Below the pieces are notes generated by a model. It ran no database searches and had not been told where the DNA came from. It saw nothing but the letters and a program-made list of their open reading frames with translations. The translations under genes and the position numbers were made by a program. Below are positions 13,389 to 57,684 of a DNA stretch of 64,000 bases, in pieces. The stretch lies in NCBI GenBank assembly GCA_030248195.1, contig JASAND010028005.1:1-64000 (forward strand), read 5' to 3'. This DNA is from Trissonchulus latispiculum. Taxonomy: Eukaryota > Nematoda > Enoplea > Enoplida > Ironidae. Each line of letters starts with the position of its first letter. Within the stretch, counting starts at the first letter, position 1.

Positions 13389-15561
13389 GGACGCATTGGT
13401 CGTGGTCGTGACAGTCGCAGTTCCACTGGATCTGTGTCTTCAGAAAAGTCTATCGCGTCGAAGGCTTCTTCCAGAAGTCGTGGACGGGGTAGAACCCCCG
13501 CCCACCAGGAGGCATCACGTTCAGACTCTGCTGGGGCTGAAACCAAAGTTCGCCAGGAACATGTTCAGCCGTCTACTTCTGATTCAGTTGAAGTAGAACC
13601 GATTTCGTCCACTACAACGGTCCATGTGGCGCCTTCGACCCTTGCGGTCATTTCAGCACCAACAACGACCACTCCAGAACCATAGTTGACCATCATCGTG
13701 ACGAATTCTCAATTAATGACGTCAACTCCAACTACCAGTGCGGCACCTTCTCGACACTTACCTTTTCCGTGGGAATCAGCTTCCCCACTTTTGACACCAG
13801 TTGACAAGGAGGAAGGTCCACGCACTTCACAAGGTATGAGCACAGCGGAAGAACTGAGCAGATCATTTCACTTTCCGAGGACATCAATCGATGTTTTCCA
13901 ACTCGTCCTCCCCTTTGAGTTCCTGCCTCGATTGAAGCTTGTCGTCCCCTTGGAGTTCCTGCCTCGATTGAAGCTTAGCAGCTCAACGATGCAGCCGGTT
14001 GGAGACAGCCTCGTCTGGTAACTGTGCCCGACATTCGTCCAGCTGGTAATCAGAAGGGCTACTCTATTCCAGCGTGCTCTAAATCCCGTGCTACTGGGTC
14101 TCTGGTTTACACGAGGAAAGTCCGTCCTGAATTTTATTTGGGTTATACTCGGGATACCTTCCCTGCTTTCCGAGTGTTGCTGGTTAGCCATCATTACCAT
14201 CTTCAAAACGTGGGATTGGGCAATGTTACTAATCGGGTGCTAGATAAGGTTGTGTTCGAAGAATTTAAACAGCAATTTCCTGATGACGTTGAACTGACTC
14301 AGATCAACTATAGTCGATGGCTTCAGCCGCCCTACATCTATATGCGGGACAGTGACCGTAATTGGAAGCCTGTCCGCATTCGTTCACCCACTGGTATCGA
14401 AGAGGTTCATCCGGTTATTGGCCTTTTACGGCGTATTTTTCTGGCTTGGCTGGAACGGAAAGCCACTACAGAGCTTCAACTCTCGGATCAACCTCTGACG
14501 AAGGCTATTAGCAAGATGCGCGAGCTGAATCCTGCAATCGCAAGTAAACTTACCATCGAGTGGAAATTCCAGCCACATGGCCATGGACGTCGCCTACACA
14601 TCTGTAAGGCGAAGATTCATCCATACTATCGTGAGGATGGCACATACTGGCCTGGTTTATCCCACGACCGCTCAGATATTTCAACGCGATGGGCTGAAGT
14701 CAGGGTCGTCGCCGACTTTGTGCCATAGCAAGGAAATTATCCTCACCTAGTTGACGCGCAGCAGAAAGACGCTATTTTCCAGATCCCTTACCATTGACAC
14801 GATGAAGCACTACCACCGACCTGGAGTCGAATGAGTTCAAGACGTGGAACCCTATAGGTTCCTCTACCTCTACCTGAGAAAGCGGTTCCCGTTTTCCACC
14901 ATGTTCGAACATCCTGGCGGTGTGAATCTTGATGTGGACCAATTGCGTCAACGCAAATTGGGAACAAAGGAGCATCTATATCAAGCTCGAAAAATCCATT
15001 TCTGCCGAGCTGAGCGCGTCGTGCAGGGCATCTATCAAGAAGCAATGTCCTCTGACAACGCCATCAAGGCTAAAGTAGATGCTGAAATGGATTCATACCC
15101 GCAGGAGCGCCTTTTGGTATGGCGTATGGCAGCTGACCTTGTATCTCAGCGCCTCATTATCTATCATTCTTTCTACTACTCTGAAGAGATGCAGCAGGAA
15201 TTGGTCGTCGCTTTGGGCTGCCTTTACGGCAAAGCCCACGAGGATTTCTACTATGGTGTAGGATTCAATATGCCTGACATGCCAGATGGTAGTCCTGTTA
15301 CCAGCAAAGCGGACCTCCCTCCCTCTGGAGAGCGAGCCTGGGTCTACAATCTTGACCACAGGCTTGGCCTGAATCGCCAGGGTGGCATGTGCACGGAACT
15401 GTTTCTCTGGCTCACACAACGACCTGTTCAAGGATCCCTTCACGCGAGAGCCCTTGGACCTGGAAGATCTTCAGGATTTCAAGCATCTTGTGACCAAACG
15501 TATTCGCATTGTCGCGAAGAAATATAAGGATGGTCTCTCGGCCCCATCGTGAGGGCCCGCG
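13389..15561 (+). pseudogene. Unrecognised gene family, copy A
   Basis: A good acceptor (TTCTTCCTGCTACAG) precedes 13389. The N-terminal part is low in complexity: Arg/Gly-Ser (GRGRDSRSS), then Ser/Thr/Pro-rich, with a stop at 13683 and a tandem duplication of about 36 bp at 13903-13975. After a frame change, about 14024-14728 encodes a folded-looking region (YIYMRDSDRNWKPVRIR, EEVHPVIGLLRRIF). After a gap with stops, 14844-15527 gives another (FEHPGGVNLDVDQLR, EMQQELVVALGCLYGKAHEDF). A block ending TREPLDLEDLQDFKHLVTKR continues in another frame. GC is higher than the surroundings. Copy B at 52163-53280 matches along its length. I do not recognise the family; several frame breaks make it a pseudogene unless unseen introns explain them. 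Confidence 0.6.
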
Positions 15562-45751: not shown

Positions 45752-45757
45752 TATTTA
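45752..45757. other. 6-bp target-site duplication, left (TATTTA)
   Basis: TATTTA lies immediately before the 5'-AG tip of the Polinton-style element and is repeated exactly at 47559-47564. Six-bp duplications are the Polinton/Maverick hallmark. Confidence 0.75.
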
Positions 45758-46166
45758 AGTAGTATAGTATGCACGCTTCGACCCTGATTTCGAGGGACGA
45801 GCGAGTTCTGGAGTATCGACTTTTGATTTTAATTGAACGATGACTGAGTGGCTTAAATTTCAAGTCTAATGACTAGAAATTGTGCTTACAATATAGTCTA
45901 AGCTTGCTTATGCTCTATTCTTCGCCCAAAAGGGATTGCCAGCAAAGCCAGAACATTTCGACCCTGATTTCGAGAGACGAGCGAGTTTTGGATTTTCAAC
46001 TTTTGATTCAAATGGACCCGTGACGGAGTGGCGTCATTTAAATAGAACGTGTGCTTACGTCGTAGTCTAAGCTAACTTGTAGTCCCTTTTTTGGCTACGT
46101 GCTAAACAGTTAAGCCAGAAAAGTTCGACCCTGATTTCGAGGGATGAACAGTTTTAAGGTGTCGAC
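45758..46166 (+). repeat. Left terminal inverted repeat of the Polinton-style element
   Basis: CGACCCTGATTTCGAG(G/A)GA occurs at about 45779, 45958 and 46126, each followed by a GAG/CAG-TTTT-GTCGAC-like word. The repeats are inverted in 47138-47558. Similarity to the right repeat is high but not perfect, so some time has passed since insertion. Confidence 0.85.
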
Positions 46167-46283
46167 TTTTGATCGGGAGGGAGGGCTTCAGAAGCGGAGC
46201 GGGTTCTGCCATGACCTCTTTCTTGCGACTTGGTCCTTTGAGAGATGATTGTGAGAGCAAAAACTTCAAATTTATAATGTAAT

Positions 46284-46985
46284 ATGGTTAAGAATAAAAT
46301 GAGAAAGGCACAATTTGAGCAAAGGAACCTTGGAAGCAAACAAGTGCCACTGAACAACAGTTTTCTGTGTGACTGCTGCGGTAGTTTTGATTTAAAAATG
46401 AAGACTATCCCATTTGCATTTATATTTTGTGCATCGTGTGGTTATGTAATAGAGAGATTGACAAATTTCTGCAGACTGCATTATGAAACATCAAACAAAT
46501 TGAAATGTCCAGTTACTGAACACAACCGGTTGAATTATTTCCTAAACAAACTGAGTCAATTTCAACAAAACGAAATGGTCAACATTAATGTTGATGTATT
46601 AGGCGACATAAAGGCTGAGCTACGAAAACAGAAAATTTATGATTTCTCAACAATTACTCCAAGCTTTCTCAAATTTGAACTAAAGACTTGACAAAACCAA
46701 GTTTCCAGACGAAAGAAAATTTTAGAGAAAATACTACAAAAATGCAAATTACTTAATTTTCCTGCTGAAAAATAAATACCTTTAGTTCTGGACACAAAGC
46801 GTCGGAATATTTTATAGAACTTTTCGGAAAAACACAAGTGATTTTCAACCAGTTGAAACCGGCAGACAGAAAGCACTTTTTAAATTATAATTTCGTACTC
46901 CGCAAATTTATAGAAATAAAGGGTATTCCAAAATAGTTTCAACCTCAAGTACTCAAAAATAAGGAAGAGATTAGAGAGCAAGACA
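46284..46985 (+). pseudogene. VLTF-3-like late transcription factor gene, broken
   Basis: VLTF-3-like proteins (poxvirus A2 and NCLDV homologues) switch on late virus genes. From the ATG at 46284 a 135-codon frame encodes a basic N-terminus, then a zinc ribbon with Cys29/Cys32 (CDCCGS) and Cys49/Cys52 (CASCG). An NYFLNKLSQFQQNE helix follows, then VLGDIKAELRKQKI, matching the middle of the family. The frame stops at 46689-46691. From about 46788 to 46985 another plus-strand frame gives the family's C-terminal blocks (LKPADRKHFLNYNFVL; EQDKLWKQICE). The gene is therefore broken by at least one frameshift and stop. It is the only gene in the element. Host zinc-ribbon protein is a weaker alternative. 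Confidence 0.7.
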
Positions 46986-47137
46986 AACTGTGGAAGCAGA
47001 TTTGTGAAAGTTAGGCAAAAGTTTTTCTTTGCAAACTTTCTGGCAAACTTTCTGTTGGAACCAGTTTTAGCGGGAACAGTGTTACTTTCTGAGAAAAGCT
47101 TGGTAAAGCATGTCTCTAAAGTAAAGTGAACCTCTTC

Positions 47138-47558
47138 GTCGACACACTAAAACTCCCTCATCCCTCGAAATCAGGGTCGAACTTTTCTGGCTTAACTGTT
47201 TAGCACGTAGTCAAAAAAGGGACTACAAGTTAGCTTAGACTACGCCGTAAGCACACGTTCCATTTAAATGACGCCACTCCGTCACGGGTCAATTTGAATC
47301 AAAAGTTGAAACTTTAAAACTCGCTCGTCCCTCGAAAATGTTTTGGCTTTTCTAGCAATCCCTTTTGAGCAAAAAGGGAACATAAGCAAGCTTAGACTAT
47401 ATTGAAAGCACACTTTCATCGTCTTTCACACTTTCTTGAATAGTCATTAGACTTGAAATTTAAGCCACTCCGTCATCGTACAATTAAAATCAAAAGTCGA
47501 TACTCCAAAACTCGCTCGACCCTCGAAATCAGGGTCGCAATTTGCACACTATACTGCT
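47138..47558 (-). repeat. Right terminal inverted repeat of the Polinton-style element
   Basis: Reverse complement of 45758-46166, with the same three CCCTCGAAATCAGGGTCG-type sub-repeats (one lacking the AATCAGGGTCG part) and the tip ACACTATACTGCT. TATTTA follows directly at 47559-47564. Confidence 0.85.
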
Positions 47559-47774
47559 TATTTAGTATTCCTAGTTCCTTAAACACGGAATAAATGTAAA
47601 AGTTTTTATAAATGATAGCTATTTGTTGTTATAAACACAAATTTTTCCTTATAACTGCTTAATAAGTTATGTAAGACGTATGTTTGATATGGGCTATTAT
47701 CAATAGTAACATTCTTTAAGATTTCTGTTTACGAAATTTCTGTTTTTAACTTATAACCTTATATATCTTATAAC

Positions 47775-55915: not shown

Positions 55916-55960
55916 AAACCCACCCTATGTAATACCAATTATATACTAACAATTATTTCA

Positions 55961-57223
55961 ATGGCTAAGCAAGTAGATGAACGGTCTATGCCGGCCTTCA
56001 AGTCCGAAATGGATCTCTTCTCGCTACCTCCAACTCAGGTCAGTGTGGAGAGTGGCTATATGGCAGAAATTTATCCCCTAAATCCTGTAACCAGTAGTGG
56101 CCCATATTACCTAAAGCTACGGATAACTGAGAGTTATGGAAAGGCAGTAGCAAAGGCGGCCGACGGTAGTATCTCAGTGGCACCCATCAATATGCTAGCA
56201 AAGTCGTTCATTAGACGATTAGTGGTCAAACTGTCCGACAAGGAAATTTACAACAGTGGAGACCTTTATCACCATGGACGTACCTGGAGACTATCGCCAA
56301 CTTTGGGAAAGAAGCAAAAACATCTCATCTGCAGAGTAAAACATTTGCAAAGGATAGTGATTTCAATGATATCTCCACTACTGCAGCTAAGCATCGGGGT
56401 ACCATTTACAGATGGTCGGTATGTCGTGGTGGCAGGACCCCTTCATTGCGACCTCTTCAAGCAAGACCGATACCTTCTGAGTGAGTGCCAGTTGCGTCTG
56501 GAATTACACCGTAACAATGACGAAATCCTCCTCCAGTCAGCAACCAGTGGATACAAACTATTAGTCGATGATATACGTTGGCATGTATGGAAAGTCAGAC
56601 CACAAGACTCTCTCACCATGGCAATTGAGGGTGTACTAAGAGATCACGAGACGGCCAAGTACCCAATCAGAAGAACTAAACTGGTGACAAGGCATATCGC
56701 TCCTGGTGTGCAGACTGTTGTGGAAAATTCCATATTCACCGGTCAACTCCCACGTAGAGTCCTAGTGGCAATGGTCAAGTCAGAGGCATTCAATGGAAGT
56801 CAAAAGCATAATCCCCTCGAGTTCCAACACTGTAATGTCAGTGAGATTGCCCTAAAGTATGGTGATGAGTTTGTACCAAAGCAGCCAATGAAGATGGCAT
56901 GGGATAAGTTCCAGTATACAATGCCCTTCATATACCTCTATGAAGGCAACGATATGGCCGGATCCACCAAGGGAGCAGACATTTCCTACGAAGACTTTGC
57001 CAAGGGATACACTATTTTTGCCTTTGACCTGACACCAGACAATATTGATACAGGGGCAATGCAACTGATCACGGAAGGTGATGTGTCACTGAGGATGCAA
57101 CTTGAGAAGGCCCTGCCGGCAGCCACTTATCCTCAGGGTTTTGAAATCATTATATACGGAGAATTTGATAATCTCATATCAATAGACTATAATCGGACAC
57201 CATTCTTTGACTACGCACTATGA
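55961..57223 (+). pseudogene. Hexon-like major capsid protein with an internal frame-shifted patch
   Basis: 420 codons from an ATG at 55961. The N-terminal SEMDLFSLPPTQVSVESGY is the signature of the adintovirus/Polinton double-jelly-roll capsid family. GPLHCDLFKQDRYLL mid-protein and AVEN/LPRRV-type strands later also fit, ending in a YNRTPFFDYAL-like tail. Between about 56278 and 56410 the residues are un-family-like, whereas another frame of the same DNA resembles the family there. Two compensating indels have therefore replaced about 45 residues, and the product probably would not fold normally although the frame stays open. The stop overlaps the protease start (ATGA, 57220-57223). Confidence 0.78.
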
Positions 57224-57684
57224 ACACCCGTGAGATCCTTGAGACTTTAAGGAAAGATTGCAAAGTTCCTCTCCTAGGAGTATTTCCCAGTGATAAGCTA
57301 CCACGATACCGCCCAGGGTGTCTTGTTGCTAACACTGAGGCATCTGGTGAGGCTGGAGAACACTGGGTTGCAATGTGGCTAGAGGATAATGGGGTAGAAT
57401 ATTTTGACAGCTACGGACTACCGCCTCTCCTCTTCATGTCATTCATTGGCAAGAGGGAACTACAGTATAATCGCATTCAGTTGCAAGATTTCACCACTGA
57501 TGTATGTGGGGAGTACTGTATATACTTCCTTCACCACCGGGCTAGAGGAAGATCAATGGACTCAATTGTCAACTATCTGAGGAGAAGAAGTGACACTAAT
57601 GATAACACTGTCAATACCTATGTTGATCGGGTGACACTAAAACCCACACCTTACTGCCAGAAATCCCATAAAAAGTCTGCGTAA
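57220..57684 (+). CDS. Adenain-like maturation cysteine protease
   Basis: 154 codons from an ATG that overlaps the capsid stop codon by four bases. The adenovirus-protease triad is present: His48 in GEHWVAMWL, Asp63 in YFDSYGLPP and Cys96 in DVCGEYCIYFL. Gln89 sits seven residues before the Cys, as in adenain. Length is a little shorter than adenovirus proteases (about 200), ending in a Lys-rich tail. It would cleave capsid and core precursors during particle maturation. The frame is intact. Confidence 0.8.
   Translation: MNTREILETLRKDCKVPLLGVFPSDKLPRYRPGCLVANTEASGEAGEHWVAMWLEDNGVEYFDSYGLPPLLFMSFIGKRELQYNRIQLQDFTTDVCGEYCIYFLHHRARGRSMDSIVNYLRRRSDTNDNTVNTYVDRVTLKPTPYCQKSHKKSA

Follow-up and report, generated by a model that had tools for sequence, protein, structure and literature searches.

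The first 64,000 nucleotides of contig JASAND010028005.1 of the nematode Trissonchulus latispiculum (assembly GCA_030248195.1), here called the window, contain a 1,801-bp element (45758 to 47558) with AG...CT tips, TATTTA on either flank, and the remains of a gene for the viral late transcription factor VLTF3. We consider it very likely that this element consists of the VLTF3 end of a Polinton joined to a second terminal inverted repeat (TIR) end, probably the opposite one, the interior having been lost by internal deletion. Full-length Polintons in the same genome also carry VLTF3.

Polintons have long TIRs with AG...CT tips. The tips, the TIRs of about 410 bp, and the perfect TATTTA duplication that a first-pass annotation had reported were all re-read in the window sequence. 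The two TIRs match in inverted orientation at 84% by BLAST (365 of 397 aligned positions are identical in a global alignment), and each contains diverged sub-repeats spaced about 160 to 190 bp apart. All three pieces of the gene match the Pfam family Pox_VLTF3 (PF04947), confirming the annotated family, and when scanned apart they score 24.1, 25.6, and 16.5 bits, so that the middle piece alone exceeds the curated cut-off of 25 bits. An NCBIfam scan of two of the pieces gave one chance match at 0.16 for one and none for the other. Between 46278 and 46799, the remnant is 72% identical in amino acids, gaps included, to the VLTF3 of a full-length Polinton on contig C17293. The gene is broken by an in-frame stop near 46691, a frame change, and a further stop, and its 3' end is gone at the joint; when intact, it would have supplied the parent Polinton with a transcription factor. 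Integrase, polymerase, ATPase, protease, and capsid genes are all absent from the window copy. With no complete protein encoded, this copy is likely inert today, in keeping with its earlier description as non-autonomous. The related description of VLTF3 as its only gene holds for the window copy but not for the family, whose full-length members carry the usual Polinton genes.

The element is not a chance arrangement because at least 40 further matches to its core DNA were found in the assembly (733.8 Mb in 21,732 contigs). Among the best 40 candidates, which were scored, the match ends at 47016 in 33 and two bases earlier in one, while the remaining six are shorter pieces that stop further left. 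Compared with one full-length relative, the window shares about three more bases past 47016, after which the two diverge. On the other side of the joint, 47050 to 47092 corresponds to a 43-bp tandem repeat found inside VLTF3-less TIR ends on C20629, C9203, C19154, and C7145, which we take for the distal ends of elements in this Polinton group. Against this assignment, a 34-residue piece of the polymerase C terminus adjoins the TIR on C9203. About 75 bases of the stretch from 47017 to 47137 match nothing found. Because the sequence left of 47016 corresponds to the VLTF3 end and the right part matches TIR ends that lack VLTF3, we favor a deletion, in which roughly 16 kb between two Polinton ends would have been lost. 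This copy, or the full-length element from which it derives, was presumably inserted at TATTTA by a Polinton integrase. No second copy with the window joint was present among the best 40 other core-DNA matches.

The full-length element on C17293 measures 17,539 bp and is flanked by the 6-bp duplication GCCAAT, and that on C18700 measures 17,812 bp and is flanked by AAAGCG. In both, VLTF3 lies next to one TIR, with the 3' end of the polymerase gene on its other side. The first-pass annotation had proposed two sources for the gene, and the presence of VLTF3 beside the same TIR in full-length Polintons favors one of them, a VLTF3-encoding Polinton relative. The other, a stand-alone passenger that gained VLTF3 via a large DNA virus, gives way to an element that looks like a full-length Polinton without its interior. 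Pfam names six genes on C17293: a double jelly-roll (DJR) capsid protein, an integrase with a chromodomain, a protein-primed polymerase, an A32 ATPase, a C2H2 zinc-finger open reading frame (ORF), and VLTF3, the last at 90.7 bits; a match to an adenovirus-type protease falls under the Pfam cut-off. Homologs of these Polinton genes are carried by C18700 and C18383. No convincing family was found for ORFs of 151, 155, 244, 400, 196, and 116 amino acids, of which the 244-residue one is labeled penton-like without any Pfam name, or for a collagen-like ORF. The collagen-like ORF lies between the ATPase and integrase genes, and its counterparts on C5319 (L053) and C11206 (L044) are 44% and 62% identical to that of C17293. 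These relatives share 6-bp duplications, TIRs, chromodomain integrase, protein-primed polymerase, A32-type ATPase, DJR capsid, and adenovirus-type protease with animal Polinton/Maverick elements and differ from them by an additional VLTF3-family gene that separates the polymerase from one TIR.

Within C17293 and C18700, the TIR stretches compared show 4 differences over 274 aligned positions and none over 260, respectively, whereas the window copy shows 32 over 397, which suggests that the family was recently active and that the window copy is older. A similar element on C11206 has two ends with different flanks and several frame breaks in its genes. Across the seven elements examined (the window included, with C15238 and C7317 counted as one), VLTF3 always lies inside the TIRs, as had been annotated, and 6-bp duplications recur in six (TATTTA, GCCAAT, AAAGCG, AGGGCA, AATGTC, and GTCAAA), in line with the annotated Polinton-type ends; the exception is C11206, which has no matching duplication. 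The polymerase, integrase, and VLTF3 of C18700 (L048/L049) are 95 to 98% identical to those of C17293 (L042/L043) and the protease is 90% identical, while the capsid, penton-like, and ATPase genes and three neighboring ORFs are only about 49 to 74% identical. The capsid module thus appears to have been exchanged in a mosaic mode of evolution. One end of the C18383 element (L039/L041) contains an inverted duplication that takes in adjacent host DNA along with another TIR and another VLTF3; it is either real or an assembly artifact.

Two further insertions are short forms with both TIRs and a 6-bp duplication. One on C13971 (126703 to 129741; 3,039 bp; AATGTC) retains an uninterrupted VLTF3 frame of 256 codons plus part of the polymerase gene, and one on C15238 (9905 to 10838; 934 bp; GTCAAA) retains the 5' part of VLTF3. 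A copy of the latter on C7317 has the same flanks and is therefore the same insertion, and we dropped this pair as proof that short forms are mobile. That all three short elements have different joints, each with all or part of VLTF3, might suggest a self-standing non-autonomous family, resembling satellites or miniature inverted-repeat transposable elements, with VLTF3 as its sole gene and moved in trans. However, the distinct joint in each is more in keeping with recurrent internal deletion than with a single family of short forms that moves, and no short form was found as several separate insertions among the best 40 scored candidates. In addition, VLTF3 lies only a few hundred base pairs from one TIR, so that many interior deletions would leave it in place, and our VLTF3 and TIR queries would miss short forms that lack VLTF3. 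We therefore regard a self-standing family as very improbable. The idea that VLTF3 is confined to small passenger elements was likewise dropped, given its presence in full-length Polintons.

A profile search of the contigs gave 34 VLTF3 matches (the window's own included, and C19504 counted twice), 25 of which have a stop-free open frame of 250 to 256 residues. The same TIR lies within 1.5 kb of VLTF3 in 24 of 30 loci (L009 to L038), with TIR pieces farther away in two of the other six, and TIR and VLTF3 align as one at 24 places on 23 contigs, a count that leaves out the window, C37, and the truncated C7317 and C15238. The 3' end of the polymerase gene adjoins VLTF3 in all 30 of these loci (with only 64 bp of it in one), and the two genes stand tail to tail, 55 to 89 bp apart, on all 30 contigs measured. 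This linkage largely refutes the notion that VLTF3 is a host gene, or an endogenized giant-virus remnant, that was captured by a Polinton or into which one inserted. Such an origin would accord with the description, in part of a 2024 mriyavirus paper, of VLTF3 as a Nucleocytoviricota gene, VLTF2 and VLTF3 being undetectable beyond that phylum (PMC11253617), and with the isolated VLTF3 copies amid animal genes in E. pallida noted in a section of a 2017 survey (PMC5294986), but we give it almost no credence.

Not all Polintons in this genome have the gene. Among the best 40 of 426 candidates in a search with the polymerase 3' end, 31 lie on contigs with an adjoining VLTF3 and 9 do not (seven at 68 to 86% identity, one at 92%, and one partial at 98%), and VLTF3 therefore marks one Polinton lineage among several, through gain there or losses elsewhere. 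A search for protein-primed polymerases scored the best 77 of 935 candidates, on 77 distinct contigs, none of which is a VLTF3 contig; VLTF3-lineage polymerases are also absent from those 77, so the figure is not a count. The genome is unusually rich in Polintons, as the 935 candidates attest, with frames of up to about 1,400 codons. Its animal nature is borne out by 77 matches to Wnt genes (best E 7.9e-62); a search for the cuticle family PF00379 gave no match, and neither did its controls.

The VLTF3 copies have a dN/dS of about 0.34; replacement sites differ less than silent sites, which points to constraint. Four cysteines, C31, C34, C51, and C54, form two CxxC pairs of an N-terminal zinc ribbon and are invariant in 10 Polinton copies, and all but C34 remain so when four PF04947-bearing environmental proteins are added. 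With these four, which are longer (339 to 439 amino acids versus 256) and only 24 to 31% identical, the Polinton protein shares invariant Cys, FL.Y, and WK.IC positions. Other searches were unproductive: a protein search with one VLTF3 yielded 467 candidates, none at 1e-3, none of 35 pattern matches in viral contigs was confirmed, and PHROGs gave no family. An AlphaFold model built from the ten Polinton copies only had a mean confidence (pLDDT) of 43, which rose to 72.7 after the four environmental homologs were added, with parts of the zinc ribbon still at low confidence. By model comparison, it resembles giant-virus VLTF3 and, weakly, TFIIB. TFIIB-like factors have a zinc ribbon plus two cyclin repeats. 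The Polinton protein has the same order of zinc ribbon and helical domain as TFIIB, Brf, and archaeal TFB, and its helical domain aligns weakly with about 90 to 100 of their residues, which we take to be the first cyclin repeat.

We predict that VLTF3 takes part in turning on the genes of its own Polinton. As an initiation factor, it would guide RNA polymerase to TAAA start motifs, and the polymerase would presumably be the host's, since no RNA polymerase family was found among the 14 ORFs scanned. The late genes of vaccinia begin at TAAAT, frequently in the form TAAATG, and the TAAA at or just before the ATG of most Polinton genes resembles this signal. Among 13 genes of C17293 (not including the polymerase, whose start could not be pinned down; the collagen-like ORF was placed via L040), TAAA stands directly before the ATG in 9 and within 10 nucleotides in 12, whereas shuffled leaders give 0.25 and 1.6. 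The exception is the protease, whose start position is uncertain. Counted over the whole C17293 element, TAAAATG appears 15 times (9 of these at gene starts), against 5.3 expected and a maximum of 13 in 200 simulations. In a diverged set of nine starts (seven C18700 genes at 48 to 87% identity over the starts, the C11206 integrase, and the C10258 VLTF3), TAAA lies within 10 nucleotides in eight and directly at the ATG in four. Near-identical copies of C17293 starts, among them a C5319 VLTF3 without the T, were not counted.

An A-rich translation context accounts for part of this excess. Once the last three bases of the leader are kept constant, the surplus of T at position -4 remains rare in C17293 (63 of 20,000) but not in the diverged set (2,916 of 20,000). 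One host histone H3 start, the single usable one among five histone stretches fetched as a control, lacks TAAA. It is conceivable that VLTF3 has no role in transcription in these Polintons and serves, for example, in DNA replication, which would be compatible with internal deletion. The tail-to-tail polymerase neighbor and the low-confidence parts of the modeled zinc ribbon would suit such a role, but the family, the fold matches, and the TAAA motif point to transcription, and we think it rather unlikely. More speculatively, this Polinton lineage may run a poxvirus-style transcription program, in which VLTF3, as a single-repeat TFIIB, would recognize a TAAA initiator fused to the start codons of most of its genes and recruit host RNA polymerase. 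Swapped-in capsid modules would then stay under the same switch, and short deletion copies that keep VLTF3 could supply full-length relatives with the factor.

Coordinates of the 1.8-kb element are collected below. Elsewhere in the window, a remnant of another Polinton lineage (55916 to 57684, plus strand) comprises a capsid-like ORF (DJR-like, E 0.005, under the cut-off) followed by a protease-like ORF, which are 22% and 31% identical to those of C17293; no VLTF3 was seen alongside, and TAAA is absent at both starts. Two neighboring ORFs of 249 and 230 amino acids (13979 to 15527, plus strand) have no Pfam match at E 0.01, and a scan of five window ORFs outside the 1.8-kb element gave no family at that threshold.

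Table 1. Parts of the VLTF3-bearing element and its flanks, in window coordinates
Feature	Position	Strand	Basis
Target-site duplication TATTTA, left	45752..45757		Direct reading
Left TIR, starting AGTAGTATAG, made of sub-repeats	45758..46166	+	Sequence comparison
Leader from TIR to gene, with AATAAA at its end before the ATG	46167..46298	+	Homologous to full-length Polinton leader
VLTF3 remnant, piece 1: covers the zinc ribbon and initial helices; in-frame TGA at end	46299..46691	+	PF04947, E 3.3e-5
VLTF3 remnant, piece 2: other frame, in-frame TAG at end	46769..46936	+	PF04947, E 1.1e-5
VLTF3 remnant, piece 3: contains the EQDKLWKQICE block; similarity with other copies stops at 47016	46937..47016	+	Pfam, E 0.007
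Stretch interior to right TIR; 47050-47092 matches the 43-bp tandem repeat	47017..47137	+	DNA match to VLTF3-less TIR ends
Right TIR, terminating ...CTATACTGCT	47138..47558	-	Sequence comparison
Target-site duplication TATTTA, right	47559..47564		Direct reading

Among the open-license papers searched, none was found to describe full-length animal Polintons with VLTF3; subscription Polinton papers lay outside that scope, so an earlier report is possible. The main texts of three papers on Polintons and Polinton-like viruses (PMC4028283, PMC7805220, and PMC10120064) contain none of the terms "VLTF," "late transcription," and "transcription factor." A related case lies in adintovirus-like regions of Amoebidium, where, according to part of the report, VLTF3 occurs together with capsid proteins and a family B polymerase whose nearest relatives are those of adintoviruses; these regions differ in having a unicellular relative of animals as host and in containing a Dam methyltransferase, and neither element ends nor a start motif are described there (PMC11244446). 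As far as the descriptions drawn on extend, the Polinton protein shares a zinc ribbon and a C-terminal helical domain with Nucleocytoviricota VLTF3 (NCVOG0262), that of mriyaviruses included, but unlike in Nucleocytoviricota, it is carried by an integrating element of 17 to 18 kb.

VLTF3 serves as a signature of the giant-virus phylum. The presence of multicopy, constrained VLTF3 in full-length animal Polintons means that this gene alone cannot mark giant viruses in surveys of animal genomes. The VLTF3 Polintons also connect the gene expression of Polintons with that of giant viruses in a concrete way, and with candidates for both the factor and the start motif in one element, Polinton transcription becomes testable.
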